Shown: one piece after another, positions 18,201 to 38,586 of the stretch
Layout of the letters: every line of letters begins with the position of its first letter
How positions within the stretch are numbered: position 1 is the first letter of the stretch
Virus record (IMG/VR): IMGVR_UViG_3300025138_000079
Coordinates: 1 to 44,415 of that record
Origin: a virus
Length of the DNA stretch: 44,415 nucleotides
Direction: 5' to 3' (one strand)
Notes under the pieces: generated by a model
Told to the model about the DNA's origin: nothing
What the model saw: only the letters and a program-made list of their open reading frames with translations
The model's database searches: none
Made by a program: the position numbers and the translations under genes

Positions 18201-21200
18201 GCAGATCCAGGGAATGGTGGGGCACAAAATGTTGGTACCGCTATGAGTTTTTCAGGACAAATATTCTACACAGACCAAAACAAATTTCAAAGAATAAATA
18301 TAGAAGTAGGTGGGGTTTATAATATTGATTTATTAAGATCTAATTTTAACTCTTTTAACTCTTTAAAATTATATGTTAATAATGACCAAACAAATACAGG
18401 ACCAGTAAATTCTATAGATGGATTACCTGTATATGAAATAGCTAGTGGGGTTTCTGCAGATAATACAACCCTTACTCTGACAGCCGGACAACAATTAGTA
18501 TTATATGCTGAAAATGGGATAAATACAATTTTTGGTTTTAATAATATATATAACACATCTTTAGATTCAAATGTAATTCAAGCTGCTTTAGGTTCACCAA
18601 CAGCACAAACACCATTTAATGAACCCTTTGTAATAACAGGATCAATTAGTAACCGTTATATAGGTGGTGTACCAGTACCTGCAGATTTTGCAACAAAAAT
18701 TACTGATGCTTATATAGTGTATTCAAGTTCAGCTACTTCAAGTTTAGCGGGTTCTTATATATTTGATGTAACACCAACATATGGGTTAATTGCTTTAACT
18801 GCTTCAGTTGTAGTAAAATCATTTTCGGGAACATCAACAAGTGCACTTTATGGGTCTGCTAATTATGGAATAGAAGATTATGGGGGTGGATTTGCAACAG
18901 GTGGAACTACTTGGACAACAGCTTCATTAATTATATACTCTGGTTCTGCAAATAATTTCCCAAATGAAATGCCTGAATTAGGTGGGGATATATTCTTTAG
19001 AAAAGATTCATATAGTACAAATCATGCATCAGGAACAAGAATTACTATAGAAGAAAATATACTACCTTCCCAATTAGAATATAATAAGGTATTAAAAATG
19101 GCTTTACTAGTTAGTAGTGGGTCAAATGCACCATCCGTAGTTCAAAGTTCTCTTATTGTTACAGAGTATAGTATGAGTTTTTCATCTTCAATAGATACAG
19201 ATACAGATCCTTCTATACCAACCGTATTTAGTGATGATTCAAATTTTGACCTTGCTTTAGACTGTCAACCTTTATTAAATAATTACAGTGATGGAAGATT
19301 AAATAATAGACTACAAGATATAGATTATAACTTTGGTACTGTTACTCCAAGTAACTGGCAACAAATTATAGAGTTTTCGGCATCAAGAGCTTCTGTACCT
19401 GAATCTAATTATACTATACAAGCTTCAGCAAACCCAAGATATTTTGGTACTAGAACAAATAGTTCTCGAATAAATACTTGGACACCTGGTGATGAAGGAG
19501 GTTATGGTAAATTACCAAATATTGAAATATCAAGAGGGTTTCTAGCTTACTTTAAAAGTACATCAGATTTATACCCATTATTAAACAACTCTACCCAATA
19601 CAATGTACAATATTTAATAGGTCAAGATGGGGTTGCAACACAACCAAAATTATCTGATATTACTCTATACAACATGCAAGGTACTTTTGATTCATACCCA
19701 GAAGTTTCTAAAGGAGTTGTAGCAATGAACCAGTCTCAAGAAAATGAATCATTAACACCCTTAAATGGTACTACAACTTTTAAAAAAGTAACACAAAGAC
19801 CAGTACCAATAATTTATTCACAAAAATCCAATTTATTCCCCGTAACATCATCTGTAGACTCCGCTGACCCAACTATTTATACTGGTGAAGGGTTAAATAT
19901 GGTTGGTAAAGAACCTGTAGATCCAAATATAGTACCAACTTTTGCAAATTATGGTTTTATAGCACAAAGTGTAGATGTAGGTAGTGAAGGTACATCATTT
20001 ACAGAAGTAGCCTTTAATGCTACAGAAAAAAACCCAGATACTAATGGAATCCCAGATGTAAATACAACAGCCTCATTTTCAGATAATTCATCTCCTTATC
20101 AAGTATATGATACTGGAACAGGAATAATACATATACCAAATAATGATAATTACCCTGCTAATAGTAATGGTGGTAATGGATTACCAACTTCTCAACCTTA
20201 TACTCTAAACCTGTCTGTAGGAATTGATACTACACCTTTAACATATCAAGTTCAAACTTCAAATGCAAATAAAAATGGTAATTATAACCAATCTGCTGCA
20301 CTTGGTAGTATGAATATTAAATTTCAAAGAACAAATACCCAAGGACCAGGTAGTAGTGCTTTTACAACCTTTATCCCAAGTAATGTAACGGTAATACTAA
20401 CCAGTTATTACCGACAAGCAGATGGATCAGAATTAACAGTAGATATAAATTATAGACAAATTGCTAGTTCTTTTGTAACCGTTGGGTCTAGTGGTGTTAA
20501 TATATCTTGGAATTCTAATATAATTAAAAATGCTATTTCAAATACAGGACAATCAACTACCCCCGTTAATAACGCAGGAAATTTATTAAAACAAAGATGG
20601 ACTGTAAGTTGTAGTGTTGGTCAAGCTACTATAAAACAAGGTAGAAATTTTAGAATATCAGGAACGGGGAATATGATAGTTTTAAATGCTGCAGGTAGGA
20701 ACATAGCCCTAGACCCAAAGTTCTTCCCTTCACTCCAAGGTGGTTCAGTTGAAAATAATCATACTTTAGTAGGAGCTAATAGTAACCCAACTACACTTGC
20801 TATACCACCTTATTGGGTGTTTAGAAAAGATGGTAGTGGAAATGATATTCCTAATACTTTAATAATGAGTTCATCACAAATGAATAAAGCATATGGTAGA
20901 GGATTCATTCAGGAAGATCTTATTTATACCGCAAGTTTAAATAAAGATTTCCCAGATGGTTTAGAACCTTCTTTTGCTTCATTTCCTAGTGTAACAACAC
21001 CCTGGGATATTCGACCTTACGATGAAATTAGATTCCAAGGTGATGAAGATTACTCTTATGTAGTAACCTCAGTTTTAACTCCTGCACAACAAACTGCGTC
21101 ACAATATATACAAGATAATGTAGGGATGTTAGAAATAACTTTAGATAATGCTGTACCCCTTAGTTTTGACAATCCATTCCAATCTTCTGTGGGGGGTATA

Positions 21201-23283: not shown

Positions 23284-24246
23284 ATGGCGGCTTTCAAACA
23301 ATTCAATTCACAGGATATAATTGTATCGCCACTAGAAGTAAATAAATCATTTACTTTTGCTGGTGACGCAGAATTATCAGCATCAAACGTTGATGTTAAT
23401 AGATTTTTAGGTAAAAATACTAATTTTACTGCATCTAATAACAATGCAACAGGGTTTAATTCTGGTAGTCTAATTCTATCTCAATCTTCAATATATGATT
23501 CTGTAAAAGAATTATATTATTCCAACTATATAACTTCCAGTTTTGGCGATAGTGCCATAACTGCTAGTGTATTATTAGGTTCTGATGTATCTGGTGATGT
23601 GTTAGTAGGTGGTGTAGGTTCTAACGGTAGATACGCAAATTATTTGCAATCTACATTAACTCAATCACGTTATTTTCCTACAGGTTCAAATGACAATGTT
23701 TTAATATTTTCTATACCTTCTAAATTATATGGAGATTATATCCAACCCGAATCATTTGTATTAAATTTAAATAATGATAACAATACTTTTAGCCAAACAT
23801 CAGAAATTATAGATGATGGGAACGGAAATCTACTCTCAGCTAGTATAAATGTAGGACAAGTATTTTATCCTCATGGTATAGCTGTCTTAACTCAACAAAA
23901 TTGGAGTGGAGATAACTTAGAAAATGCATATTCCGGATCTCAAATTACAGCTTCATTTTCAAGCTCATATTCAATCTATGAAACACAATATAAATGTACA
24001 ATAGATGAATCTGAATTTGGTTTTTCACAAAACCCAAGTATTATATCATCTAGTTTAACTGGTAACGAAAATACTTCAAGCGGGGTACCTTATAATTTTG
24101 CAACTGGTTCATACTTTAGTCCTTATGTAACTACTGTTGGTATGTATAACGAACAATACGAGTTGTTAGCTGTAGGAAAATTAGCACAACCTTTACCTAC
24201 TTCACAAACAACTGATACAACAATTTTAGTAAATATAGATAGATAA
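23284..24246 (+). CDS. Structural protein, paralogue of the previous gene (copy 2)
   Basis: The 320-residue protein shares the N-terminal QD.VVS/IVSP motif and the C-terminal TTVG(L/M)YN....LLAV.KL..P signature with the preceding gene; the middle is not obviously alignable by eye. It is Ser/Asn/Gly-rich and beta-structured, without membrane segments. Its stop codon overlaps the ATG of the Cys-rich fibre-tip-like gene in TAATG, placing all three in one translational unit. A connector between baseplate and fibre would fit the context; no enzymatic motif is visible. Confidence 0.7.
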   Translation: MAAFKQFNSQDIIVSPLEVNKSFTFAGDAELSASNVDVNRFLGKNTNFTASNNNATGFNSGSLILSQSSIYDSVKELYYSNYITSSFGDSAITASVLLGSDVSGDVLVGGVGSNGRYANYLQSTLTQSRYFPTGSNDNVLIFSIPSKLYGDYIQPESFVLNLNNDNNTFSQTSEIIDDGNGNLLSASINVGQVFYPHGIAVLTQQNWSGDNLENAYSGSQITASFSSSYSIYETQYKCTIDESEFGFSQNPSIISSSLTGNENTSSGVPYNFATGSYFSPYVTTVGMYNEQYELLAVGKLAQPLPTSQTTDTTILVNIDR

Positions 24247-25322
24247 TGGCATGTACACTCTCAAATACAGGAATAGTAACCGGACAAACAATAACAGCGG
24301 TACAAATATCTCAATCTATAAATGCTTTTACAAAGGCGGAGGCATATAATATATCTCTTTCTGGTTCTTTTGTTGTAACTGGAAGTACTGCCTTTTCTAG
24401 TTCTAATGGTGCCATGGTTATCCAAGGTATACCACAAAATACTCAAAATAATGTCTTAACTTACAATTGTAGTACAGGTAACGTAACCTTTGCTTGTTGT
24501 AGTTGTTTTACATCCCCACCTTCAACTGGTGCTTATGTAACAGGAAGTGGAGAAGATATTAGACCAATAGCAGGACAAAATTCTACTAACAATTGCAATA
24601 ATTCAGGAATAGGAAGTGGTGCTAATAATAATGTAACTTCTAGTTTTGCCTATATTGGAGGAGGAAGATCAAATAATATTTCAACATCTGCTGAGTGTTC
24701 CATAATAGGAGGTGGTGTACAAAATAAGATTATATCAGCTGATAATTCTGCTATATTAGGTGGATTACAAAATACAATCAATCAAAATTCATCTGATAGT
24801 GTAGCATTAGGGGGAGTATGTAATGAAATAAACAGATGCGGAAATTCTCATTTAATAAATGGATATAATAACCAAATATTAGGTAGTGGAACAACTAATA
24901 ACCATAGCACAATATTAAATGGTAATTGTAATACAATATGTGGTGATGTTACTGGTTGTTCTTATAATACAATATTAAATGGAGAAAATAATTGTATTAG
25001 TGATGGAAAAAATTCTTCTATATTAAATGGAGATTGTAATACAATATGTAGTGATGGTAGCGCCATTATAGGAGGAAGTACAAATGTAATAACAAGTACT
25101 CACACTTGTGCCATAATAGTAGGTTCAAATATCACAAGCTGTGCTGCATGTACAACTCATGTAAATAATTTAAATGTAGGTTGTACCGTAACTTTAGAAT
25201 TACGCTCACCTTTAGGGAGTGGTACTATTGGACAACTTATTGCTTGTGATGCAGGGGGAGGTGCAGCAACTCTGTATTTTCATAATGGGTCTTCATTCAA
25301 GCAGGTATGTTTAGTACCATAA
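24246..25322 (+). CDS. Short tail fibre protein, Cys-rich with YadA-head-like repeats
   Basis: Residues 10-48 (ITAVQISQSINAFTKAEAYN then ISLSGSFVVTGS) match the N-terminus of the giant fibre downstream, so both probably attach to the same site. From about residue 130 to 300 there are repeats of the form S.I.GG..N.I (AYIGGGRSNNI, SIIGGGVQNKI, AILGGLQNTI, STILNGNCNTI), like the left-handed beta-roll of YadA-type heads, which are trimeric. About 21 Cys occur in 358 residues, which is striking for a phage fibre; the TCAIIVGSNITSCAACTTHV segment is closely matched in the giant fibre. The C-terminus ends LYFHNGSSFKQVCLVP. The protein reads as a rod-less short version of its neighbour. Confidence 0.75.
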   Translation: MACTLSNTGIVTGQTITAVQISQSINAFTKAEAYNISLSGSFVVTGSTAFSSSNGAMVIQGIPQNTQNNVLTYNCSTGNVTFACCSCFTSPPSTGAYVTGSGEDIRPIAGQNSTNNCNNSGIGSGANNNVTSSFAYIGGGRSNNISTSAECSIIGGGVQNKIISADNSAILGGLQNTINQNSSDSVALGGVCNEINRCGNSHLINGYNNQILGSGTTNNHSTILNGNCNTICGDVTGCSYNTILNGENNCISDGKNSSILNGDCNTICSDGSAIIGGSTNVITSTHTCAIIVGSNITSCAACTTHVNNLNVGCTVTLELRSPLGSGTIGQLIACDAGGGAATLYFHNGSSFKQVCLVP

Positions 25323-25355: not shown

Positions 25356-28300
25356 ATGGCTAAGAAGTTAGAAAATATTTTCCAAGCAAATGTTGATGAA
25401 ATTTCACAAGGTTTTACTATCAACTCTTGGCACGTTTCTCAATCTGTAGATGCATTCACAGCTGAAGATGCCTATGATATTTCAATATCAGGGTCTTTAA
25501 ACATAACTGGGTCTTCTACTTTATCTGGAAGCGTAATAACACCAACATTACCTGATGCCTCATCGGGTTATGAAGTAGTAGTAGTAGATTCTTCAACTAA
25601 AGAATTAAAAAAAGTATCTTCCATAAGTGCAGGTTCATCTGGTACTTCAGGAACAAGTGGTTCATCAGGAACAAGTGGAAATAGTGGTACATCAGGTTCA
25701 TCAGGAACAAGTGGTACAAGTGGTTCTTCAGGTGTAAGTGGTACTTCAGGTACTTCAGGTGCTGATGGAGACAAATATCAAACAACATCAACTACTTCGG
25801 CAGTATTAGGAACAGGTAATGTCTGTATTACTGTAGGAGTTGACTTAGCATATTCTGCTGGCCAAGAAATGATTATGGCTAATAGTGACACTGCTTTTCA
25901 AACAGCTTTAGTTACATCATATGATGCCGTAACAGGAGTACTTTGCTTTGGGAGTATTATAACTCAAGAAGGTACAGGAACATATACATCATGGGAAGTA
26001 AATTTATCAGGTAATGTAGCAGGTTCAAGTGGAACATCCGGTTCAAGTGGTACAAGTGGTATAAATGGTACTTCAGGTACTTCAGGTGCAGATGGTTCAT
26101 CTGGTTCATCAGGATCAAATGGTACAGACGGAACAAGTGGTACAAATGGTTCTTCAGGAACAAGTGGTGTATCTGACAATTATGCAACAACTTCAACAAC
26201 AAGTTTTACATTAGGAGGAAATGGAACAATAACTGTAGGTACAGGCTTAGCTTATACAGCAGCTCAATCCATAATTATAGTATACGACGTAAATAACTTC
26301 CAAGAATGTGAAGTTACAACATATAATAGTGCTACAGGAGAATTAGTATTTCAATCACCAACAAGAACAGTAGGTTCAGGAACATATACATCTTGGTCAG
26401 TTAACTTAGATGGTGCTAGTGGTGGAGATGGTTCATCAGGTTCATCAGGTTCTAGTGGAACAAGTGGAACAAGTGGTACAGCAGGAACAAGTGGTTCTTC
26501 TGGTACAGCAGGAACAAGTGGTTCCTCTGGTGTAAGTGGAACAAGCGGAACTTCAGGAACAAGCGGAACTTCTGGTACAAGTGGTTCATCAGGAACTTCG
26601 GGTACAAGCGGAACCGCAGGAACAAGTGGAACATCAGGATCAAGTGGTACTGCTGGTACAAGTGGTACAGACGGTACTTCTGGTACTTCAGGAACAAGCG
26701 GTTCTTCAGGAACATCAGGTTCATCTGGTACATCAGGATCATCAGGAACAAGTGGTACATCAGGTACAAGTGGTACAGACGGTTCATCTGGAACATCAGG
26801 AACAAGTGGTTCAGACGGTTCATCAGGAACTAGTGGAACAAGCGGTTCTTCAGGAACATCAGGAACTTCAGGTTCAAGTGGAACTGCAGGAACTTCTGGT
26901 ACAGATGGTACAAGTGGAACATCTGGTTCTTCAGGTACATCTGGTACAAGTGGTTCAGATGGTACTTCAGGTACATCAGGAACAAGTGGAGTATCAGGAA
27001 CAAGTGGTTCTTCAGGAACATCAGGTACAAGTGGTACAAGTGATTCATCAGGAACTTCGGGTACAAGCGGTTCTTCAGGAACTTCTGGTACAGATGGTAC
27101 TAGTGGTACAGATGGTTCTTCAGGAACATCAGGAACAAGTGGTACAGATGGTTCTTCGGGAACAAGTGGTACAAGTGGTACAGATGGTACTTCAGGAACA
27201 AGTGGTTCTTCAGGAACAAGCGGAACAAGTGGTTCATCAGGAACTTCAGGAACAAGTGGTACATCAGGTTCAGACGGAACTTCAGGTTCTTCAGGAACAT
27301 CGGGAACAGCAGGTACAGATGGGACATCAGGTTCTTCAGGTACAAGCGGAACTTCAGGTACAACAGGTACAGCAGGTTCAGATGGTTCTTCAGGAACATC
27401 AGGTTCTTCAGGAACATCTGGTTCTTCAGGTTCTAATGGTACAGATGGAACTTCAGGTTCTTCAGGAACATCAGATAATTATGCAACAACTTCAACAACA
27501 AGTTTTACATTAGGAAATAGTGGAACTATAACTGTAGATACAGGTTTAGCATATACAACAGCACAATCTATTATTATTGTTCATGATGTAAATAATTTTC
27601 AAGAATGTGAAATTGACACTTATACCTCAGGCACTGGACAATTAATATTTTTATCCCCAACTAGAACAGTTGGATCAGGAACATATACAACATGGGAAGT
27701 TAACCTAGATGGTGCTTCAGGTGGAGATGGTTCATCAGGAACAAGTGGTTCTTCAGGAACATCAGGAACTTCAGGTTCAGATGGAACAAGTGGATCAAAT
27801 GGTACAGATGGTACTTCAGGTAATACAGGTTCATCCGGAACATCTGGAACTTCAGGTTCAGACGGAACTTCAGGAACATCGGGTTCATCAGGTACATCAG
27901 GAACAAGTGGTACAGATGGTTCTTCAGGAACCTCAGGTACTACAGGTACAGCAGGTACAGATGGAACTTCAGGTACTTCAGGTACTTCAGGAACAAGTGG
28001 TTCTTCAGGAACATCAGGAACAAGTGGAACTTCAGGAACTGCAGGTTCAGATGGTTCATCAGGAACAAGTGGAACAAACGGTTCTTCAGGAACCTCAGGA
28101 ACATCAGGTTCAGATGGTACATCAGGATCTTCAGGAACATCAGGTACTTCAGGTACAAGTGGCTCTTCAGGAACAGCAGGTACAAGCGGAACTTCAGGTT
28201 CAAGTGGTACATCAGGTATAAATGGTGATCCAGGATCACCAGGTACTTCAGGTTCATCAGGTACTTCAGGTTCATCAGGAACTTCAGGAACAAGTGGTTC

Positions 28301-31300
28301 AAATGGTACAGATGGTACTTCTGGTACTGCAGGTACAGATGGTACAAGCGGAACAAGCGGTTCTTCAGGTACTTCAGGCACATCAGGTTCTTCGGGAACA
28401 AGTGGTACTACAGGAACAGCAGGTTCAGACGGAACTTCTGGTTCATCAGGTACAAGTGGTACATCAGGTACTTCAGGAACAAGTGGTTCATCAGGAACAT
28501 CAGGAACAAGTGGCTCATCTGGAACAAGCGGTACTTCAGGAACAGCAGGAACTTCAGGTTCATCAGGAACAAGTGGAATATCAGGAACAAACGGAACTTC
28601 AGGTTCGGATGGTACTAGTGGGACTTCAGGTTCAAGTGGTACATCAGGAACAAGTGGTTCAGATGGAACATCAGGAACAAGTGGTTCAGATGGAACATCA
28701 GGAACAAGCGGTTCATCAGGAACAAGTGGTACTAGTGGTTCAAGCGGAACTTCAGGTTCAAGCGGAACTTCAGGTACAAGTGGTGAATCCGATAAATACG
28801 CAACAACATCAACAACCTCTTTTACATTAGGTAATACAATAAATGATACAATAACTGTAGATGCAGGTTTAGCTTATACAACAGCACAATCTATTATTAT
28901 AGTATTTGATGCTAATAATTTCCAAGAATGTGAGGTTATATCTTATAATAGTGGAACAGGTGTTTTAGAATTTGGTCCTTCATTTAGAACAGTAGGTTCA
29001 GGAACATATACATCTTGGTCCATTAATTTAGATGGTGCTTCAGGTGGAGATGGTTCATCAGGAACATCAGGAACAAGTGGATCATCAGGAACAAGCGGAA
29101 CAGCAGGTACAGATGGAACTTCAGGTACTTCAGGTTCAAGTGGAACAAGTGGTGTATCTGGTACATCAGGTTCATCAGGAACTAGTGGTACGTCAGGTAC
29201 TTCAGGAACAAGTGGTTCATCAGGAACTTCAGGTGTAAGTGGTACAGATGGTTCTTCAGGAACTAGTGGTACTAGTGGTTCAAATGGAACAGATGGTACA
29301 TCAGGTTCATCAGGAACAAGTGGTGAATCCGGAACATCAGGAACATCAGGAACATCAGGTTCAAGTGGAACTAGTGGTACAAGTGGTTCAGATGGAACTA
29401 GTGGTTCATCAGGAACAAGTGGAACAAGTGGTTCATCAGGAACTAGCGGAACTTCAGGTTCTAATGGTACAGACGGAACATCAGGAACATCTGGTTCTTC
29501 AGGTACATCAGGTATATCAGGCACATCCGGTTCTTCAGGAACAAGCGGAACAGCAGGTACAGATGGAACTTCAGGAACTAGTGGTACAAGTGGTTCAAGC
29601 GGAACCTCAGGAACTTCAGGTTCATCAGGAACAAGCGGAACTTCAGGTTCAGATGGTACATCAGGAACTAGTGGTTCATCAGGAACTAGTGGTACATCAG
29701 GTTCAGATGGTACAAGTGGTTCAAGTGGAACTTCAGGTGTTTCAGGAACATCAGGTACAGATGGAACATCAGGAACAAACGGTTCTTCGGGAACAAGCGG
29801 AACAAGTGGTTCAAGTGGAACTTCAGGAACATCCGGCTCTTCAGGAACATCAGGAACAAGTGGTACAGATGGTACAGATGGTACTTCAGGTACAAGTGGT
29901 TCAAATGGAACAGATGGAACAAGTGGTACATCAGGTTCATCAGGAACTAGTGGTACATCAGGTTCATCAGGAACTTCAGGTTCAAGCGGAACTTCAGGTT
30001 CATCAGGTACAAGTGGAACTTCTGGTTCAAATGGTACATCAGGTACAAATGGAACTTCTGGTTCTTCAGGAACATCCGGTAACACGGGTTCAAGTGGAAC
30101 AAGTGGATCTTCAGGAACATCAGGTTCATCAGGATCTAGTGGTGTATCTGATGTATATGCTACAGAATCAACCTCAACATTTACATTAAATAATGTACTT
30201 AATGCTTCTATAGTTGTTGCTACTGGATTAGCTTATACAACAGCACAATCTATTATTGTAGTGCATAATTTAACTAATTTCCAAGAATGTGAAGTAGTTA
30301 CTTATAATGCAGCAAATGGTAATTTAACATTTACTCCTCCTTTTAGAGTAGTTGGTAGTGGACAATATTCATCTTGGGAAGTTAACCTAGATGGTGCTTC
30401 AGGTGGAGATGGTTCATCAGGTACAAGTGGTTCAAATGGTACAGATGGTACTTCAGGTACAAGTGGTTCAAATGGTACAGATGGTTCAAGCGGTACCTCA
30501 GGAACAAATGGAACTTCAGGAACAAACGGGACAAGTGGTACAGACGGTACTTCAGGTAATACCGGTTCTTCAGGAACTAGTGGTACGTCAGGTACAGACG
30601 GAACAAGTGGTACTAATGGTACATCCGGTACTGCAGGTTCTTCAGGAACATCAGGAACATCAGGTACTTCGGGTTCATCAGGAACTTCAGGTTCATCAGG
30701 AACTTCAGGAACAAGTGGTACAGATGGTTCTTCAGGAACTAGTGGTACATCAGGTTCAGATGGTACTAGTGGTTCAAGTGGTACTAGTGGTTCAAGTGGT
30801 TCAAATGGTACAGACGGAACTTCAGGAACTAATGGAACAAGTGGTTCATCAGGGACATCAGGAACAAGTGGTTCTTCAGGAACCTCGGGTTTAAGTGGTT
30901 CTTCAGGTACTTCAGGTACTTCGGGCTCATCAGGAACTTCAGGAACAACAGGAACAGCAGGTACAGATGGTACATCAGGTACATCAGGAACATCTGGTTC
31001 TTCAGGTACAAGTGGTACATCAGGTACATCAGGTTCTTCAGGATCTTCAGGTTCAAATGGTACATCAGGTTCAAGCGGAACTTCTGGTTCATCAGGAACT
31101 AGTGGTACTAGTGGTACTTCAGGAACTTCAGGATCAAATGGTACAGATGGTACAAGTGGAACAAGTGGTTCTTCTGGTACATCAGGTAATACTGGTTCAT
31201 CAGGAACAAGCGGTTCTTCAGGAACATCAGGAACATCCGGAACAAGCGGAACTTCTGGTTCATCAGGAACATCTGGTACAAGTGGCTCTTCAGGTACAAG

Positions 31301-34300
31301 TGGTACATCAGGAAGTAATGGAACCGATGGTTCATCAGGAACTTCTGGTTCATCAGGAACTTCTGGTAATACTGGTTCATCAGGAACATCAGGTAATACG
31401 GGTTCAAGTGGTACAAGTGGTTCAAGTGGAACTAGTGGTTCATCAGGATCTTCAGGATCTTCAGGATCTTCAGGATCAAGTGGTTCATCAGGTTCATCAG
31501 GACAAGATGGTAATTTTGGTGGTGCTACTTTTAATTATACATTTGACACATCAACAAATCCTAACACAAATCCAGGTAGTGGAGATATAAAATTAAATAA
31601 CGCCACACAAAATATTTCTACAATATCCACTATTAGCCAGACCACAGAAGACGGTGATGATATACAAGAATTTTTAGAGAGTATTGATGCCTCTACATCA
31701 GCAGTAAAGGGTCATATGAGAATAGCGGATAAATTCTCAGCAGAAAATTTTATATTATTTTCAATATCAAACCTATCAGACTTAGGTACATACTGGACAA
31801 TAAGCATAAACGAACAAGCATCATCAGCTGCATCTCCATTTACTAATAATGAAGAGGTAATTGTTTCTTTCGCTTTAGTAGGTGATAGAGGAGATGATGG
31901 TTCATCAGGATCTAGTGGTTCTTCAGGTTCATCAGGATCTAGTGGTTCTTCAGGAACATCAGGTTCATCAGGATCTTCAGGTAACACAGGTTCAAGTGGA
32001 ACAAGTGGTTCATCAGGAACAAGCGGAACTTCAGGTTCATCAGGATCTTCAGGTAACACGGGTTCAAGTGGAACAAGCGGTTCTTCAGGAACAAGTGGTG
32101 TTTCAGGTTCATCTGGATCTTCAGGTAATACAGGTTCATCAGGAACAAGTGGTTCAAGTGGTACATCTGGTACTTCAGGAACATCAGGTTCATCAGGATC
32201 TTCAGGTAACACAGGTTCAAGTGGAACAAGTGGATCTTCAGGTACTTCAGGTAATACAGGTTCATCTGGAACATCAGGTTCTTCAGGTACAAGTGGTACA
32301 TCAGGTTCTTCAGGATCTTCAGGTAACACAGGTTCAAGTGGAACAAGTGGATCTTCAGGTACTTCAGGTACTTCAGGTTCATCAGGAACAAGTGGTTCAT
32401 CAGGAACAAGTGGTAATTCAGGCTCTTCAGGTTCATCAGGATCTAGTGGTTCATCAGGAACTTCAGGTTCATCAGGTTCTTCAGGATCAAGTGGTACAGC
32501 AACAATAACAAATTTAGGTAATGATAGAGTAACTACATCAACGGGGACTCAAGGCCAATTAAATGCCGAAGCTAATTTAACATTTAATGGTACTTGTTTA
32601 TCAATAGGTGCATATGCTGCATTTGACAACAACAGATTACAAGTAGATGGTGGAAATATAGGATTATCATTAGGTGGAGAAACTTATGGAATGATATCCC
32701 CAACATCAAGTGGTGCAGGTTTTGGTCTTAACTTTTCAGTAGGGGATGGTGTTACATCTACAGATACTCCTCTTATGAAGCTTACAAATGATATTGGAAG
32801 TGATGGAATTGGAGTAGTAGAAATTTATTCTTCTGGTTCAACAGTACTAGATGTACAAGGATCTCAGGGTCAACTATTTTCAGTAACAGACGATTTATTA
32901 GGGACAGTATTTGCAGCATCTGATATATCAGGTGTTCCAATCTTATCCGTAAGTGGTTCAGGTTTAACAACGATTGATGGAACCTTAAGTATCCCTAACT
33001 TACCTAATATAACAACCAGTAATGATGTATTAGTAATAGATTCAAGTGGTAATATAGGATACGAAGCAAATGCTGCTTCAAGTGGAACAAGTGGTTCATC
33101 AGGTACAAGTGGGTCTTCAGGAACTAGTGGTACAAGTGGTACTTCAGGTACGTCAGGAAGTAGTGGAACATCAGGAAGTTCAGGAACGAGTGGTAATACT
33201 GGAACGTCAGGTTCAAGTGGTACTTCAGGTAGTTCAGGAACATCAGGAATTAGTGGTACAGCAGGATCTTCAGGATCAAGTGGTTCATCAGGTGCTGCAA
33301 CTATATGTAGTAATGTAGATAGTTATGTATTAACAGCAACCGGAGGAGCAAATATATGTGGTAATGAATATTTTAAATTTAGTTCAGGTCAAAGAGGAAT
33401 AGTAGTAGGTCAATTACACACTAATTCTGGAACAACATATTCAAGTATTTTAGGATCAGGCAACACCTTAGCTGCTTGTAGTAACTACTCTTCAATTTTA
33501 GGTGGACAATCAAATCAAATACTTTCTTCAAACTGTAAAACTACTATAGCAGGTGGTGATAGTAACCAGGCAGGTTTAGGAGATCACCAATTTATAGGTA
33601 GTGGACTTTCCAACCATGTTTCATCAAGTTATTCATCTATTATAGGAGGTAGTGGTAATAGAATTTGTGAAAAACAACTATCAGCGTTTATAGGAGGGGG
33701 AACAGAAAATAAAATATGTTGTGCTACTGGAACTCATTATTATAATGCTATAGTAAGTGGTTGTAAAAACACAATTTTAGGTGCAAGTAGTAATGGTTGT
33801 AGTATGAATTTTATTGGAAGTGGTCAATCCAATCTAGTACAAAGTTCTACATGGTCTGTAGTGGGGGGTGGTTGTACCAATACCATTAGAAACTCTCCAT
33901 TTAACTCTATTGTTGGGGGATGCCTTAACCTCATAGGTGGATCATGTAGTAAACTTAGTTTTATTGGAGGGGGAGTTAGCAATAGTGTTTGTAATTCTTG
34001 TTGTTCTGTTATTGGTGGTGGAGACGGTAATAAAAGTTGTCAAGCTTGTTATTCTTTTATAGGAGGAGGATTTAATAATTGTGTTTGTACTAATGCTGGA
34101 AGGAGTATGATTGTAGGTGGACAATCAAATTCCATAGCTACAGCAATTAATAGTGGAATAATGGGGTATAATAATACAATTGCTTCAAGTCATAATTGTA
34201 GCTTTATTATAGGTGCTAACCTTACTTCTACGTGTATTTGTACTACATATATGAATAATGCTGACATAAAAGGACGAGTAACAACAGAGTGTTTAATTCT

Positions 34301-34865
34301 CCCTTGCTATAATGCTACATCAGTTGCAACAAATGGTAGTTTAAACCCAATTCAAGTCCCATATGCAGTAAAAGATACATTAGCTTTATTAGCTGTTGAT
34401 CCAAGTGGTAATGTTGTAAAAGGATCACAAGAAGGAACTTGGACATTTACTAAAGCTCAATTAGATGCTTTAACAGGTACAACAAGTGGTGTTACTCTTT
34501 TATCTGCTCCTGGAACTAACAAAGCTGTTATTGTAGAAGAATCTAACTGGATGATAAAATATAGTGGCACAGGTACTATGTCTACTAATGCTTTTGAAGT
34601 AAGACAAGCTACTAATACTCTTGCTACTGCAGGTATAACAAGAATACCTTCTGGTAAGATAAACGAAATAATGTCTGTTGCACCTACAAATCCAAGTTAT
34701 GGATTTTATTCAAGAGATTTACCTCAGTACAATAATGATGGAAGGTCATATGTCACTAATAAATCAACATTTTTAGTTAGAACATTCAACAATGCAACCC
34801 CAAGTAATTTAATTAGCATGTCTATAAAATTAAAATACAGAGTATTTGACGCAAGTACTTTTTAA
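25356..34865 (+). CDS. Giant collagen-like tail fibre, 3169 residues
   Basis: Residues 17-58 are the attachment segment shared with the preceding short fibre. Eight arms of uninterrupted Gly-X-Y triplets then alternate with globular modules. Modules 1-5 (about residues 139-222, 273-352, 707-785, 1146-1226, 1599-1679) are copies of one domain of about 80 residues with the pattern YATTSTTSFTLG...GLAYT.AQSIIIV...NFQECEV...GSGTYTSW. Module 6 (2053-2175) is a different beta domain. Module 7 (2381-2576) has a tail-fibre segment containing LDVQGSQGQLFSVTDDLLG. From 2647 a Cys-rich YadA-head-like beta-roll with GG..N.I repeats leads to a C-terminal domain. The triplets use Thr, Ser, Asp and Asn with almost no Pro and no Lys. 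The 609 or so triplets would span about half a micrometre if fully triple-helical. Host receptor binding at the tip is inferred. Confidence 0.9.
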   Translation: MAKKLENIFQANVDEISQGFTINSWHVSQSVDAFTAEDAYDISISGSLNITGSSTLSGSVITPTLPDASSGYEVVVVDSSTKELKKVSSISAGSSGTSGTSGSSGTSGNSGTSGSSGTSGTSGSSGVSGTSGTSGADGDKYQTTSTTSAVLGTGNVCITVGVDLAYSAGQEMIMANSDTAFQTALVTSYDAVTGVLCFGSIITQEGTGTYTSWEVNLSGNVAGSSGTSGSSGTSGINGTSGTSGADGSSGSSGSNGTDGTSGTNGSSGTSGVSDNYATTSTTSFTLGGNGTITVGTGLAYTAAQSIIIVYDVNNFQECEVTTYNSATGELVFQSPTRTVGSGTYTSWSVNLDGASGGDGSSGSSGSSGTSGTSGTAGTSGSSGTAGTSGSSGVSGTSGTSGTSGTSGTSGSSGTSGTSGTAGTSGTSGSSGTAGTSGTDGTSGTSGTSGSSGTSGSSGTSGSSGTSGTSGTSGTDGSSGTSGTSGSDGSSGTSGTSGSSGTSGTSGSSGTAGTSGTDGTSGTSGSSGTSGTSGSDGTSGTSGTSGVSGTSGSSGTSGTSGTSDSSGTSGTSGSSGTSGTDGTSGTDGSSGTSGTSGTDGSSGTSGTSGTDGTSGTSGSSGTSGTSGSSGTSGTSGTSGSDGTSGSSGTSGTAGTDGTSGSSGTSGTSGTTGTAGSDGSSGTSGSSGTSGSSGSNGTDGTSGSSGTSDNYATTSTTSFTLGNSGTITVDTGLAYTTAQSIIIVHDVNNFQECEIDTYTSGTGQLIFLSPTRTVGSGTYTTWEVNLDGASGGDGSSGTSGSSGTSGTSGSDGTSGSNGTDGTSGNTGSSGTSGTSGSDGTSGTSGSSGTSGTSGTDGSSGTSGTTGTAGTDGTSGTSGTSGTSGSSGTSGTSGTSGTAGSDGSSGTSGTNGSSGTSGTSGSDGTSGSSGTSGTSGTSGSSGTAGTSGTSGSSGTSGINGDPGSPGTSGSSGTSGSSGTSGTSGSNGTDGTSGTAGTDGTSGTSGSSGTSGTSGSSGTSGTTGTAGSDGTSGSSGTSGTSGTSGTSGSSGTSGTSGSSGTSGTSGTAGTSGSSGTSGISGTNGTSGSDGTSGTSGSSGTSGTSGSDGTSGTSGSDGTSGTSGSSGTSGTSGSSGTSGSSGTSGTSGESDKYATTSTTSFTLGNTINDTITVDAGLAYTTAQSIIIVFDANNFQECEVISYNSGTGVLEFGPSFRTVGSGTYTSWSINLDGASGGDGSSGTSGTSGSSGTSGTAGTDGTSGTSGSSGTSGVSGTSGSSGTSGTSGTSGTSGSSGTSGVSGTDGSSGTSGTSGSNGTDGTSGSSGTSGESGTSGTSGTSGSSGTSGTSGSDGTSGSSGTSGTSGSSGTSGTSGSNGTDGTSGTSGSSGTSGISGTSGSSGTSGTAGTDGTSGTSGTSGSSGTSGTSGSSGTSGTSGSDGTSGTSGSSGTSGTSGSDGTSGSSGTSGVSGTSGTDGTSGTNGSSGTSGTSGSSGTSGTSGSSGTSGTSGTDGTDGTSGTSGSNGTDGTSGTSGSSGTSGTSGSSGTSGSSGTSGSSGTSGTSGSNGTSGTNGTSGSSGTSGNTGSSGTSGSSGTSGSSGSSGVSDVYATESTSTFTLNNVLNASIVVATGLAYTTAQSIIVVHNLTNFQECEVVTYNAANGNLTFTPPFRVVGSGQYSSWEVNLDGASGGDGSSGTSGSNGTDGTSGTSGSNGTDGSSGTSGTNGTSGTNGTSGTDGTSGNTGSSGTSGTSGTDGTSGTNGTSGTAGSSGTSGTSGTSGSSGTSGSSGTSGTSGTDGSSGTSGTSGSDGTSGSSGTSGSSGSNGTDGTSGTNGTSGSSGTSGTSGSSGTSGLSGSSGTSGTSGSSGTSGTTGTAGTDGTSGTSGTSGSSGTSGTSGTSGSSGSSGSNGTSGSSGTSGSSGTSGTSGTSGTSGSNGTDGTSGTSGSSGTSGNTGSSGTSGSSGTSGTSGTSGTSGSSGTSGTSGSSGTSGTSGSNGTDGSSGTSGSSGTSGNTGSSGTSGNTGSSGTSGSSGTSGSSGSSGSSGSSGSSGSSGSSGQDGNFGGATFNYTFDTSTNPNTNPGSGDIKLNNATQNISTISTISQTTEDGDDIQEFLESIDASTSAVKGHMRIADKFSAENFILFSISNLSDLGTYWTISINEQASSAASPFTNNEEVIVSFALVGDRGDDGSSGSSGSSGSSGSSGSSGTSGSSGSSGNTGSSGTSGSSGTSGTSGSSGSSGNTGSSGTSGSSGTSGVSGSSGSSGNTGSSGTSGSSGTSGTSGTSGSSGSSGNTGSSGTSGSSGTSGNTGSSGTSGSSGTSGTSGSSGSSGNTGSSGTSGSSGTSGTSGSSGTSGSSGTSGNSGSSGSSGSSGSSGTSGSSGSSGSSGTATITNLGNDRVTTSTGTQGQLNAEANLTFNGTCLSIGAYAAFDNNRLQVDGGNIGLSLGGETYGMISPTSSGAGFGLNFSVGDGVTSTDTPLMKLTNDIGSDGIGVVEIYSSGSTVLDVQGSQGQLFSVTDDLLGTVFAASDISGVPILSVSGSGLTTIDGTLSIPNLPNITTSNDVLVIDSSGNIGYEANAASSGTSGSSGTSGSSGTSGTSGTSGTSGSSGTSGSSGTSGNTGTSGSSGTSGSSGTSGISGTAGSSGSSGSSGAATICSNVDSYVLTATGGANICGNEYFKFSSGQRGIVVGQLHTNSGTTYSSILGSGNTLAACSNYSSILGGQSNQILSSNCKTTIAGGDSNQAGLGDHQFIGSGLSNHVSSSYSSIIGGSGNRICEKQLSAFIGGGTENKICCATGTHYYNAIVSGCKNTILGASSNGCSMNFIGSGQSNLVQSSTWSVVGGGCTNTIRNSPFNSIVGGCLNLIGGSCSKLSFIGGGVSNSVCNSCCSVIGGGDGNKSCQACYSFIGGGFNNCVCTNAGRSMIVGGQSNSIATAINSGIMGYNNTIASSHNCSFIIGANLTSTCICTTYMNNADIKGRVTTECLILPCYNATSVATNGSLNPIQVPYAVKDTLALLAVDPSGNVVKGSQEGTWTFTKAQLDALTGTTSGVTLLSAPGTNKAVIVEESNWMIKYSGTGTMSTNAFEVRQATNTLATAGITRIPSGKINEIMSVAPTNPSYGFYSRDLPQYNNDGRSYVTNKSTFLVRTFNNATPSNLISMSIKLKYRVFDASTF
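25632..25769 (+). repeat. Gly-X-Y arm 0 (46 codons)
   Basis: The first collagen-type tract follows the attachment segment and consists of GSS, GTS, GNS, GVS and GAD triplets. It is short compared with the inner arms. Confidence 0.85.
26022..26171 (+). repeat. Gly-X-Y arm 1 (50 codons)
   Basis: A tract between modules 1 and 2 that includes GIN, GAD, GSN, GTD and GTN triplets among the GTS and GSS units. Confidence 0.85.
26412..27473 (+). repeat. Gly-X-Y arm 2 (354 codons)
   Basis: The first long arm opens with GAS-GGD-GSS, as do all three arms that follow modules 3-5. One Gly is replaced by Asp at codon 563 (GAT at 27042-27044), the only break in the every-third-Gly rule that I saw here. Ser is encoded by AGT, TCA, TCT and TCC and Gly by GGA and GGT, so the DNA repeat is much less uniform than the protein repeat. 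Confidence 0.9.
27711..28790 (+). repeat. Gly-X-Y arm 3 (360 codons)
   Basis: A long arm containing the only Pro residues I found in the triplet tracts: GIN-GDP-GSP at 28218-28241, with Pro codons at 28230 and 28239. GDP and GSP are classical collagen triplets. Confidence 0.9.
29034..30149 (+). repeat. Gly-X-Y arm 4 (372 codons)
   Basis: A long arm of GTS, GSS, GTD, GSD and GSN triplets with occasional GVS, GES and GIS. Its length is close to those of arms 2, 3 and 5. Confidence 0.9.
30393..31511 (+). repeat. Gly-X-Y arm 5 (373 codons)
   Basis: A long arm rich in GTN, GNT and GTD triplets near its start and in plain GSS triplets near its end. The last 80 bases are almost pure GSS, just before the single GQD triplet and module 6. 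Confidence 0.9.
31881..32495 (+). repeat. Gly-X-Y arm 6 (205 codons)
   Basis: This arm opens GDR-GDD, the only Arg-containing triplet noticed, and is then dominated by a nested repeat of GSS, GSS, GNT, GSS, GTS units repeated about every 100-110 bases. It has no GTD triplets, unlike the upstream arms. Confidence 0.9.
33084..33293 (+). repeat. Gly-X-Y arm 7 (70 codons)
   Basis: The short last arm, between module 7 and the Cys-rich beta-roll. It uses AGT in both the X and Y positions more often than the other arms (GGAAGTAGT, for example). Confidence 0.85.
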
Positions 34866-34933: not shown

Positions 34934-35956
34934 ATGAAATTAAGTATAATCACAAATTACAATAGTAGGGGATATGTAAATGAACAATTTATTTTTAATA
35001 AATTATGTTCTACTTTAGATATCCCTTCAAATGACATTTTTAATTTTAATACAACTAACACTGCCTATAACATAAATGAAAACTATACTCATGTTTTAGT
35101 ATTAATTGATTATAAAATTACTAATATTAATATATATAAAGAATGCTTAGATAGTATAACCATTCCTAAAATATTTATTATAGATATGGTTCCCCAAAAA
35201 CATAAGGAAATATATTTAAAAGAAAAAATTAACTCTCATTTTCCCTTTACTAGTCTTTCTAAAAATTTACAAAATTTACTTTACGATCAATGTGCTGATG
35301 GTTTTATATTTTATAATAAATTAGATCAAGATCTCTTTAAGGATTATTATATTGTTGATAACAAAAAACCATTAACTATTATTCCACCTTCCTTAGGGAA
35401 AAAGGAGGATATCAAAATTAAATTTAAAAATGTTAAACCTAATAAACTAATAGGTACTAACTGTAGTCCCTCTATAAGTAATGGGTTTTTAAACTTCTCA
35501 AATATAATGGGCAATCTAAAAGATTATTCTTTAAATATATATGGAGCACATGGTAGAGAGGATATATTTGGAGAAAGTATAATAAATGATTTAACAAGTA
35601 CTTTACCTAATATTAATTTTAAAGGTAAGTTAAAAAATACAAAACTATTTTTTAGCTCACACCATATATATTATAGTGCTGTTATTTATGATTCATTTGA
35701 TTACTTTACATTTTTAAGTATTTTAAATGGTATGGTCCCTATTCTTACAGAAAACACAGGTACCTCTTCATTTTTTAAATCATACCCCTTTCAATCCAAT
35801 GGTACCCCAGAATCAATAAAATATAATATTAATTTAATTACAAATACCCCCCCTGATTATTTAAAAGAAATATTAACTAATACTTTAAAAGGTTTACTTG
35901 AGTTAAATGATAGCCTTTCTAAAGAAAAATATTATACCTTTTTAAATGGATTTTAA
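34934..35956 (+). CDS. Glycosyltransferase, GT-B fold (GT4-like)
   Basis: The 340-residue protein looks like a two-domain GT-B glycosyltransferase. The N-terminal half has alternating strands and helices (VLVLIDYKITNINIY, IPKIFIIDMVP) and reaches PLTIIPPSLG at the domain junction. The C-terminal half has LNIYGAHG, then NFKGKLKNTKLFFSSHHIYY and DSFDYFTFLSILNGMVPILT, corresponding to the nucleotide-sugar binding region of GT4-type enzymes (the E...LEA...G.PV pattern, here degenerate). It would transfer a sugar from a nucleotide donor; donor and acceptor are unknown. It follows the fibre gene, has its own non-late promoter and overlaps the GT25 gene by 11 bases. The fibre is a candidate acceptor; a host surface glycan or DNA is an alternative. 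Confidence 0.7.
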   Translation: MKLSIITNYNSRGYVNEQFIFNKLCSTLDIPSNDIFNFNTTNTAYNINENYTHVLVLIDYKITNINIYKECLDSITIPKIFIIDMVPQKHKEIYLKEKINSHFPFTSLSKNLQNLLYDQCADGFIFYNKLDQDLFKDYYIVDNKKPLTIIPPSLGKKEDIKIKFKNVKPNKLIGTNCSPSISNGFLNFSNIMGNLKDYSLNIYGAHGREDIFGESIINDLTSTLPNINFKGKLKNTKLFFSSHHIYYSAVIYDSFDYFTFLSILNGMVPILTENTGTSSFFKSYPFQSNGTPESIKYNINLITNTPPDYLKEILTNTLKGLLELNDSLSKEKYYTFLNGF

Positions 35957-37271
35957 ACACAGAACACTAGGGTTTGATAAAATATACGTCATAAATTTAA
36001 AACGTAGACAAGATAGGAAAGAACAAATTATTAAAGACTTTCCAAATACAGATTTTACTTTTATAGAGGCTATAGATGGAAAAAACCTATCCCACCACCA
36101 ATTAATAGAACAGGGAAAACTAAATACATCTTTTTTTGATCCTAATGGGATGATAACTAATGGGGTATTTGCTTGTGCTTTATCACATAAAAAAGCCTGG
36201 GATCAAGCATTAATGGATGGTGTAGAAAATGCCTTGTTTTTAGAGGATGATGTATATCCTATATGTGAGTTCGTTAAAGATCAAAATTATATCCCTGAGT
36301 ATCAACAAATTTTAGATGAAATAAAACAATATGATTGGGATTTAATTCATTTGGGTAAAAAAACTGAATTTCAATTTGGTATAAATATTGGTAATTTTTT
36401 AACAATGCCCCGATTTAATGCCAACTACCATGGTGCACACGCTTATATAGTTAAAAAAGAAACAATAAAATATCTATCAGATAATTACCTCCCTATTAAA
36501 TATGCTGCTGATGTATATTTAGAACAATTATATAATACCCATAACTCTTTTACTCTTAAACAAAGTATTATTAGACAAAAATCAGACACACTTGATACAC
36601 AAAATGCTGATTCTGATACTTATTATAATGATTTTAGAGAAAGTGGTGGTAATATAGGTATATCATTTAATGATCAGGGTAATGTTATAAATAAAAAAAT
36701 TGCTCAATATTTAAAACATCCAGAAGATTTACTAAATCAATACATGGAGATAGTTTTTACAAAGCCTAAATTTGGTATTCAGAAATTTAATAAAAACAAC
36801 TTCTTTGGGTTATCTGAAATGTTAAAATATTTATCTAATAACTTACCCCTTAATACTAAAATGGTAGAATTATATAGTCACTTAGGTGAATCTACCTTCT
36901 ATTTTGGATGTAGTGAATTATTTAGTAATATATATGCTATAGATCCTTTAAAGGGAAAAGATACATTTAATATAAAAAATAATATATCATGGAAGGATGT
37001 TGAAATAGGCTTTCATTCCAATACCTTTCATTTTGATAATATAAGTAAAATAAAAGAAGATCCTATAAAGGTTAGTAAAGATTTTTCTAACATTTCATTT
37101 TTATATATTAATAATAGAAAACAAGAAGATATACATTCTTTAATTTTATCATATTTACCTATAATAAATAAAAATGGGTTTATAGGGGGTGATAATATAG
37201 AACAGGCACCACCTAATTCTATTATTTTTAATAATAATTGGATAATTAAAAAGAAAGATTATTTAAGGTAA
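35946..37271 (+). CDS. GT25-family glycosyltransferase fused to a methyltransferase-like domain
   Basis: The first 240 residues are GT25-like: KIYVINLKRRQDRKEQII, then TFIEAIDGKNL, the VFACALSHKKAWDQAL helix, the metal-binding FLEDDV (Glu100-Asp101-Asp102), WDLIHLG and a GAHAYIVKKE segment. GT25 includes bacterial LPS galactosyltransferases and animal procollagen galactosyltransferases. Residues from about 275 to 441 resemble a class I methyltransferase of the Methyltransf_24 type: MVELYSHLGESTFYFG (about 305), YAIDP and SFLYINNRKQEDIHSLI (about 385) with NGFIGGDN. The usual IDG.H motif is changed to INNRK, so catalysis by this domain is doubtful. It overlaps the preceding glycosyltransferase. 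The fusion suggests sugar addition followed by capping, or a structural second domain; both are inferences. Confidence 0.8.
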   Translation: MDFKHRTLGFDKIYVINLKRRQDRKEQIIKDFPNTDFTFIEAIDGKNLSHHQLIEQGKLNTSFFDPNGMITNGVFACALSHKKAWDQALMDGVENALFLEDDVYPICEFVKDQNYIPEYQQILDEIKQYDWDLIHLGKKTEFQFGINIGNFLTMPRFNANYHGAHAYIVKKETIKYLSDNYLPIKYAADVYLEQLYNTHNSFTLKQSIIRQKSDTLDTQNADSDTYYNDFRESGGNIGISFNDQGNVINKKIAQYLKHPEDLLNQYMEIVFTKPKFGIQKFNKNNFFGLSEMLKYLSNNLPLNTKMVELYSHLGESTFYFGCSELFSNIYAIDPLKGKDTFNIKNNISWKDVEIGFHSNTFHFDNISKIKEDPIKVSKDFSNISFLYINNRKQEDIHSLILSYLPIINKNGFIGGDNIEQAPPNSIIFNNNWIIKKKDYLR

Positions 37272-37306: not shown

Positions 37307-37663
37307 ATGGAACATACTTGGAAAATTATTGATATGAAAAGAGACCCATCTAGTGGGTTAGTAACACAAATTACGTGTAATACTGAAACTAGATTTCATT
37401 CTCCAACCATTCCTTCCTCTAATGAACATGAAACAGGATCAAACTTCTTTCATAGATCAACAGCAGAGGTAGAGATAACCGGGTCCCCTTCAAATCCATC
37501 ATTTATATCTTTTGGAGATTTAACTGAAGAAATAGTTATAGAGTGGGTTAAAGGAAGATTAGATAGTAATGCTATAGAAACATCTAATTCCTCATCTATA
37601 GCTGAGCACGTTATTATAGCTACTTCCCAACTACCAATATCAGGAACTCCTTGGGATAATTAG
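37307..37663 (+). CDS. Small conserved T4-like phage protein, function unknown
   Basis: The 118-residue protein has the pattern W+I.DM+R....G.V near its start (TWKIIDMKRDPSSGLV), a FISFGDLTEEIVIEWVKGRL segment at about residues 64-83 and a C-terminal SGTPW. I recognise this layout from small uncharacterised proteins of marine T4-like phages encoded near structural genes, recalled and not searched. It is beta-rich with one helix, soluble and without catalytic residues. Its own late motif suggests a virion or assembly protein. Confidence 0.65.
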   Translation: MEHTWKIIDMKRDPSSGLVTQITCNTETRFHSPTIPSSNEHETGSNFFHRSTAEVEITGSPSNPSFISFGDLTEEIVIEWVKGRLDSNAIETSNSSSIAEHVIIATSQLPISGTPWDN

Positions 37664-37710: not shown

Positions 37711-38586
37711 ATGAATATTATATTTCAAATAGAAGGTGGTCTTGGTAAGTCTATTATGGCCACAGCAATGATAAAAGTTATAAAAAAACGTTATAAAAAC
37801 TCCCATTTAGTAGTTGTAACTGGGTTTCATGATGTTTTTTTAAATAATCCGGATGTTAATGAAATTTATAATATTAACAATACAAATGGTTTTTACCTTA
37901 AATACATTAAGGACCAAAAATGTAAGATATATGTAAATGAACCATATAGAACTTCTGATTATATTTTAGAAAAACCTATACATTTATTTAAAACTTGGTG
38001 TGAATTGTACGGTTTACGCTATAATAATGAACAACCACAGATATACATAACACAACCTGAGTTAGATTATTTTAAACCGTATTATACCACAGATAAACCC
38101 ATATTAGCTATACAACCACTTGGTGGGCCTGCTGGTTTAGGTTACCAATATTCTTGGACTAGAGATTTACCCGATCCTACTATAATGGCTATAATTGATA
38201 GGTATAAAGAATCACATACTATTATCCATATAAAAAGAAAGGATCAAAAGATATATCCCGATACTATGCAAGCATTAGATGGATTTAGAAGTATAGCAGT
38301 ACTACTACAACTATCAGATAAAAGATTATTAATAGACAGTTTTGCACAACATATGGCTGCTTCATTAAATTTAAAATCTACAGTTTGTTGGTCAAACACA
38401 AAACCTGAAATTTTTGGTTACAACCTTCATAACAACATTAAAGCAAAACCTTTTACTAAAGAAATGAATTATGAACAAGCAGCTTATGCCCCCTTTTCAT
38501 TATCTGAAGAGATACATAATCTCCCATATAATGACTTAAGTGAAATATTTGATAATAATAAAATATTTAATTCTCTAGATAGTTAA
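37711..38586 (+). CDS. Glycosyltransferase, GT9/heptosyltransferase-like
   Basis: The 291-residue protein begins NIIFQIEGGLGKSIMATAMI, which matches the opening strand and glycine loop of GT9-type enzymes (GG.GD...ATP...). It continues LVVVTGFHDVFLNNPDVNEI, typical of their first Rossmann half. The second half starts at about residue 128 (KPILAIQPLGGPAGLG) and includes LLQLSDKRLLIDSFAQHMAA, equivalent to the D...HLA region of the family, and TVCWSNTKPEIFGYN. It is shorter than usual heptosyltransferases, and the donor cannot be inferred. GGLGKS looks like a P-loop at first sight but the spacing is wrong. It is preceded by its own non-late promoter and completes a set of three glycosyltransferases after the fibre gene. 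Confidence 0.7.
   Translation: MNIIFQIEGGLGKSIMATAMIKVIKKRYKNSHLVVVTGFHDVFLNNPDVNEIYNINNTNGFYLKYIKDQKCKIYVNEPYRTSDYILEKPIHLFKTWCELYGLRYNNEQPQIYITQPELDYFKPYYTTDKPILAIQPLGGPAGLGYQYSWTRDLPDPTIMAIIDRYKESHTIIHIKRKDQKIYPDTMQALDGFRSIAVLLQLSDKRLLIDSFAQHMAASLNLKSTVCWSNTKPEIFGYNLHNNIKAKPFTKEMNYEQAAYAPFSLSEEIHNLPYNDLSEIFDNNKIFNSLDS

Follow-up and report, generated by a model that had tools for sequence, protein, structure and literature searches.

Collagen, as it is usually understood, needs proline (Pro) or hydroxyproline (Hyp). Fibres built of Gly-X-Y triplets are also known from phages and bacteria, and among the closest described systems are the EPcl fibres of E. coli prophages, tail-fibre proteins in which Gly-X-Y domains are combined with globular ends, the arms having Pro in 48% of X positions and charged residues at about one-third of the X and of the Y positions (Ghosh et al., 2012; PMC3368898). 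Across viral, Gram-positive and EPcl collagens, X is Pro in 22–48% and Thr in 0.1–3% of cases, and bacteria and viruses are stated to lack the prolyl hydroxylase that would make Hyp (PMC3368898). BclA and Scl2 also combine a Gly-X-Y repeat with abundant Thr, BclA being glycosylated; in these bacterial collagens, Thr resides in Y (31.6–48.3%) and Pro in X (review PMC8968730). As to phage virions, those of mycobacteriophages carry glycans, located on the C-termini of capsid and tail-tube proteins in the account cited in PMC12619734 (Freeman et al., 2023). Here, we consider the virus record IMGVR_UViG_3300025138_000079 of IMG/VR, 44,415 bases long and probably a fragment of a larger genome (the whole of this stretch is termed the window), and within it a gene at 25356–34865, on the + strand, that codes for a collagen-type tail fibre of 3169 residues, the rod. 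It shares with EPcl its architecture, but it has Pro in 2 of 614 triplets, its charges are nearly all Asp and its Thr is in X; compared with BclA and Scl2, the positions are exchanged, as Thr makes up 59% of X and 2.8% of Y. The substrate that we propose, a long collagen-type rod, is also distinct from the mycobacteriophage proteins just mentioned. The explanation to which we grant slightly better than even chances is that of a very long tail fibre, the collagen-type rods of which would be glycosylated on Thr and Ser by phage enzymes encoded behind the rod gene. In the literature that we could cover, most subscription journals lying outside it, we came across no description of phage fibre genes accompanied by enzymes that modify collagen.

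A collagen grammar almost without proline

The rod open reading frame (ORF) was translated and its Gly-X-Y runs were measured. The eight strict arms that a sequence-only reading of this DNA had described are indeed there, amounting to 614 triplets, or 1842 residues, and ending at 33299 (about 1826 residues and 33293 in that reading). Gly occupies 613 of the 614 register positions, with no register slip across the arms; the sole exception is an Asp at residue 563, within GTS-DSS-GTS, where the register is kept. Thr (59%) and Ser (32%) fill X, while Y is Ser (80%), Asp (9%), Asn (4%), Ala (3%) and Thr (3%), with GTS (299), GSS (168), GTD (33), GTA (19), GSD (16) and GSN (14) as triplets. The two Pro codons noticed in the same reading, at 28230 (GDP) and 28239 (GSP), are the only ones in the translated arms, the charge of which is −62 (62 Asp, 2 Glu, 1 Lys and 1 Arg), and none of the eight arms holds a Lys-Gly-Asp/Glu pair. 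The protein displays the long strict repeat by which collagen-like proteins are recognized (PF01391; Pfam Collagen match, E 2e-233), and departs from the X and Y composition of known collagens, be they rich in Pro/Hyp or made of Pro in X with Thr or charged residues in Y.

Rods of this kind, free of Pro and dominated by GTS and GSS, are common in uncultivated phages, and that of the window is a giant member of a widespread class. A search of viral contigs with the knob domain (a globular domain that alternates with the arms) and with a degenerate GTS pattern, counting rods of at least 20 triplets, recovered 192 loci and 213 distinct rod ORFs, 186 of which have less than 1% Pro. In unrelated groups selected by the knob, X is Thr in 54%, Ser in 25% and Pro in 3% of triplets, and Y is Ser in 66% and Thr in 11%; GTS exceeds GST in 18 of 19 independent groups, a comparison made on domain-selected loci, since those selected by pattern bias the count. 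With Thr in X here, against Pro in X and Thr in Y elsewhere, the grammar is reversed relative to that of known collagens. Another relative, L418 (6210–15999), has Pro-free rods of still another grammar (GLQ, GIT, GQK, GSQ), with no recognized glycosyltransferase (GT) behind them. It could be argued that tandem duplication of DNA under little selection, or an assembly artefact, is enough to produce such a composition, and the DNA is indeed dense in overlapping tandem repeats. Yet Ser at Y is encoded by both of its unlinked codon families (TCN 317, AGY 172), and the Gly codons vary (GGT 357, GGA 243, GGC 8, GGG 5) while Gly itself stays, which shows that the residues themselves are kept, beyond a mere repetition of DNA. 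As the whole repeat lies within one uninterrupted frame of 3169 codons, and as the same grammar dominates 18 of the 19 independent domain-selected groups, we consider that account to be extremely improbable.

The arms of the window are predicted to form a collagen-type triple helix, under the assumption of a trimer. A polyglycine-II-type bundle, or flexible and partly disordered Gly/Ser/Thr linkers between the knobs, could be proposed instead, as the arms are nearly free of Pro and devoid of Lys-Gly-Asp/Glu pairs, as their Thr is in X, unlike that of bacterial collagens (PMC8968730), and as host–guest peptides lose stability when Pro in X (a drop of 2–15 °C) or Hyp in Y (0–21 °C) is replaced (PMC7824840). 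Flexible linkers, however, have no need of Gly kept throughout without any slip, and arms 1 and 2 keep their lengths, exactly 16 and 17 triplets, in each of three phages (the window, L002 and L011). Furthermore, one unbroken arm of 213 triplets in L115 runs from GTS/GSS through GQK-GEV and again GTS/GSS to GPT in a single register; that GTS shares this register with canonical collagen triplets favours one collagen-type helix over polyglycine II. The polyglycine-II or unfamiliar fold that the sequence-only reading had envisaged thus found no backing, and we regard the absence of a collagen helix as improbable. If the arms are triple-helical, the length of roughly half a micrometre that was put forward at that time follows from sound arithmetic (1842 × 0.29 nm, or about 0.53 micrometre). 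By the peptide data, a bare helix without Pro and without charge pairs looks weak (PMC7824840), hence the interest of sugars.

Modifying enzymes behind the rods

A GT4 domain (PF00534) is over cut-off in 36 of 48 rod records selected by the knob, as against 1 of 50 random viral records drawn by a 14-base pattern (Fisher p 3e-15), and its position is telling: 32 of 39 matches fall in the 5 kb that follow the rod, vs 5.3 expected at random placement. Sulfotransferases, found in 11 of the 48 records, are all within the same 5 kb (1.6 expected), an APS-kinase cluster is downstream of the rod in 11 loci, and the genes upstream of rods show little enrichment in such enzymes. At least one GT or sulfotransferase is found downstream in 45 of 50 domain-selected loci having 4 kb of downstream DNA; many rod-bearing records being related to each other, the same test was made on unrelated groups, giving 13 of 16 domain-selected groups, and 17 of 38 when the pattern-selected groups are included.

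A matched control is provided by the window's own phage family, for which the structural gene at 21550 was used as a marker and the slot behind the fibre read up to the primase. About 20 relatives with short ordinary fibres have no such enzyme gene between 21550 and the primase. Where the rod is of the Thr/Ser kind and the slot can be read, GTs are found in the window, L002, L011 and L344/L417, so that, on counts that are small and were taken by eye from gene tables, GTs are present in 4 of 7 family members with Thr/Ser rods and in 1 of 23 without (p 0.006). The association of rods with enzymes is real, yet not strict. Two relatives combine mucin-like TPSIT fibres with polypeptide GlcNAc transferases (PF11397). 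At L354 (12396–16181), L366 (11703–20657) and L421, mucin-like fibres of the TPSIT/TRTPSIT type take the place of the collagen rod and PF11397 enzymes follow, L421 having in addition a GT2-like gene and a GDP-mannose dehydratase.

The type of enzyme also follows the chemistry of the rod. Of 11 rods with 5 Pro or more per 100 triplets, 6 are followed by a gene for a prolyl-hydroxylase-like (P4H-like) 2-oxoglutarate oxygenase, vs 3 of the 86 others; by groups, the gene is present in 4 of 8 Pro-bearing ones vs 2 of 30 (p 0.012). In L040, L115 and the phage of L070/L424, the rods carry GPT, GPQ and GxK-GEx triplets, and behind them are encoded both a P4H-like oxygenase and a protein of 810 residues that associates GT4, GT25 and a C-terminal domain which, in L040, matches the human lysyl hydroxylase LH3 (E 1e-30). 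In L040 and L115, every Lys of the rod occupies Y, the position at which lysyl hydroxylases act. In L424 (3314–6329), the fusion of GT4, GT25 and lysyl-hydroxylase-type domains adjoins the prolyl-hydroxylase-like gene, directly behind a rod bearing Pro and Lys. The presence of protein-directed collagen enzymes behind rods argues that the slot serves the rod.

The main rival of rod glycosylation would have the collagen-type fibre unmodified, with the neighbouring GTs and sulfotransferases altering the envelope of the host, for instance to keep other phages out, the slot being shared as a region of host interaction. Several observations lend it weight, or otherwise speak against the rods being the substrate. 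In pelagimyophages, GT genes close to those of tail fibres were taken to modify the O-chain of the host (PMC7029224). Relatives of the window's GT9-like protein are found behind a non-collagen fibre in HTVC112P and beside fibre-like genes in AG-345-L05. Some rods have no such genes: in L363, L367 and L364, all with Thr/Ser rods, the slot extends to the GIY-YIG nuclease or primase end without a recognized GT, while L368/L422 have GT9, sulfotransferase and APS kinase without a rod. L002, the nearest kin of the window, has only the GT9-like gene and not the GT25 pair, and enzyme classes were assigned throughout by profile alone. Against alteration of the envelope, the commonest families downstream of rods include neither flippase nor O-antigen polymerase; the cassettes hold lysyl hydroxylase, P4H-like and polypeptide GlcNAc transferase families, which are directed to proteins, and the presence of these families tracks Pro and Lys in the rods. 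We see this rival as rather unlikely, while granting it more weight than the other rivals.

In the window itself, four genes in the same orientation separate the rod from the end marker of the slot. A GT-B-looking protein comes first (34934–35956, +); its fold was recognized by reading of the sequence only, it has no family match, and its AF2 model is uninformative (pLDDT 39), points that weigh against the glycosylation account. It is followed by a GT25 glycosyltransferase with a methyltransferase-like C-terminus (35946–37271, +; PF01755, E 6e-23, 82.1 bits vs a curated cut-off of 24), the GT25 domain of which finds its best solved matches in human procollagen galactosyltransferase 1 (COLGALT1, E 3e-14) and Mimivirus R655. 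As solved structures seem to be scarce among other GT25 enzymes, the COLGALT1 match is to be taken as suggestive only. The likeness to the animal and Mimivirus enzymes, that of this domain to COLGALT1 and that of the fusion of related phages to LH3, goes with a difference: the phage versions are encoded beside Gly-X-Y rods. As the arms of the window hold a single Lys, the acceptor there could hardly be hydroxylysine. Then come a DUF7936 protein (37307–37663, +; profile match), whose gene immediately follows that of the rod in L002 and L011, and a GT9/heptosyltransferase-like protein (37711–38586, +), identified by a weak heptosyltransferase match, by homologues annotated as glycosyl transferases and by its downstream cluster, as it is found behind rods in 27 loci; a profile search of the PDB with this family gave no match. 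A GIY-YIG nuclease (38670–39152, +; PF19835) marks, by synteny, the end of the variable fibre slot. These genes, together with those behind the rods of relatives, lend independent support to the tail-fibre reading and to the idea, raised in the sequence-only reading, that glycosylation would stand in for Pro.

A scan with the whole GT25 protein as query returned no relatives; L140 and L204, recovered by the DNA pattern, have the same GT-B-looking, GT25 and GT9 set directly behind their GTS rods, continued by a nucleotidyltransferase, an APS kinase, a sulfotransferase, a multi-domain GT protein of 1447 residues and, further on, a PF11397 GlcNAc transferase. Behind the GTS rods of L425 (3263–16161) and L426 (5194–18905) are likewise found GT25, GT9, nucleotidyltransferase, APS kinase, sulfotransferase, a methyltransferase-like protein, the 1447-residue multi-domain GT and a polypeptide GlcNAc transferase, in what is apparently a sulfated-glycan pathway. 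GT25 as a general partner of rods was rejected, being present in a minority of rod records. Beyond the slot, an aspartyl/asparaginyl beta-hydroxylase (39186–40343, +; PF05118, E 4.5e-20) was considered for a role on Asp and Asn at Y. This idea was dropped: where enough downstream DNA was available, the gene turned up in no locus but those of the window and its near-identical kin; rods elsewhere whose Y positions hold as much Asp do without it, and pelagimyophages have it among their core genes (PMC7029224), so that a link to the rod is unsupported.

Organization of the rod and of its surroundings

All features of the rod and of its sister fibre listed here are on the + strand. The N-terminal attachment region of the rod (25356–25631) starts, by sequence reading, in a way that resembles the preceding gene (24246–25322), a short sister fibre without collagen arms, the protein of which matches the rod ORFs of relatives. 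Arms and knobs then alternate, the arms being delimited by the triplet measurement and the five knob copies, of about 80 residues each, by profile match: arm 1 (25632–25775, 16 triplets), knob 1 (25770–26006), arm 2 (26022–26174, 17 triplets), knob 2 (26175–26411), arm 3 (26412–27473, 118 triplets, including the Gly to Asp change), knob 3 (27474–27710), arm 4 (27711–28790, 120 triplets, with the sole two Pro), knob 4 (28791–29033), arm 5 (29034–30149, 124 triplets), knob 5 (30150–30392) and arm 6 (30393–31526, 126 triplets). A non-collagen domain of a type that differs from the knobs (31527–31880) precedes arm 7 (31881–32501, 69 triplets), and another (32502–33083) separates it from arm 8 (33084–33299, 24 triplets), both having been recognized by sequence reading. 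The C-terminal head (33300–34862) has IGGGxxN repeats and resembles that of the sister fibre, by reading and by profile match. Beyond the first two arms, lengths differ between the window, L002 and L011.

The AF2 model of the knob family is a confident small beta-barrel (pLDDT 95.5). As predicted relatives, it has 'Collagen triple helix repeat' proteins from uncultured phages and one protein from Virus NIOZ-UU157; structure comparison gave no convincing solved relative, with Z up to 7.9 scattered over many small beta-barrels.

The rod gene stands behind a baseplate operon, coding for gp25 and a J-like wedge protein (gpJ), in a slot conserved in the family, and it matches PHROG tail fibre families, these matches being partly driven by the repeat. 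The J-like protein has its nearest named relatives in Flavobacterium phage immuto and in Microcystis phage Mel-JY01, and we infer, solely from phage relatives, a host among Bacteroidota. O-glycosylation in such hosts uses the sequon D-[ST]-[AILVMT], which is absent from the arms of the window. Between the baseplate and fibre genes lies a structural protein of 3070 residues (12294–21506), where immuto and Mel-JY01 have proteins of 1265 and 1336 residues. Far downstream, at 42172–44200, three consecutive related-looking proteins of 257, 218 and 199 residues, two of them with LamG/concanavalin-A-like matches, are possibly sugar-binding.

A possible finishing kit for fibres

We may now consider how the system would work. 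The collagen-type rods, separated by knobs, would hold the C-terminal beta-repeat head out to the host surface. In the infected cell, their dense Thr and Ser hydroxyls would be glycosylated by the enzymes of the slot, that is, GT25, the GT-B-looking protein and the GT9-like protein, and these sugars would keep the rod hydrated, stiff and protected, in place of Pro/Hyp. What the analysis shows is how the rod is built, that it stands behind baseplate genes, which enzyme families accompany it and, by statistics and synteny, that rods and such enzymes go together; the trimer and its triple helix, the rod being the substrate and any influence of sugars on its stability are inferred.

A wider proposal, which we advance tentatively, is that tailed phages of (probably) Bacteroidota and of other aquatic bacteria bring along a maturation system for their collagen- and mucin-type fibres, encoded in an exchangeable slot behind the fibre gene, where GTs, sulfotransferases with sulfate-donor enzymes, prolyl- and lysyl-hydroxylase-like enzymes or polypeptide GlcNAc transferases would be fitted to the residues of the rod, sugars on Thr and Ser enabling a proline-free collagen helix. 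Phage enzymes of this sort could serve the production of designed collagens in bacteria. If the rods fold as predicted, they show how Thr and Ser can make up a collagen helix, in all probability aided by sugars; and should the neighbouring enzymes act on them, phages would possess finishing kits of their own for collagen and mucin, made of relatives of the enzymes that decorate the collagens of animals.

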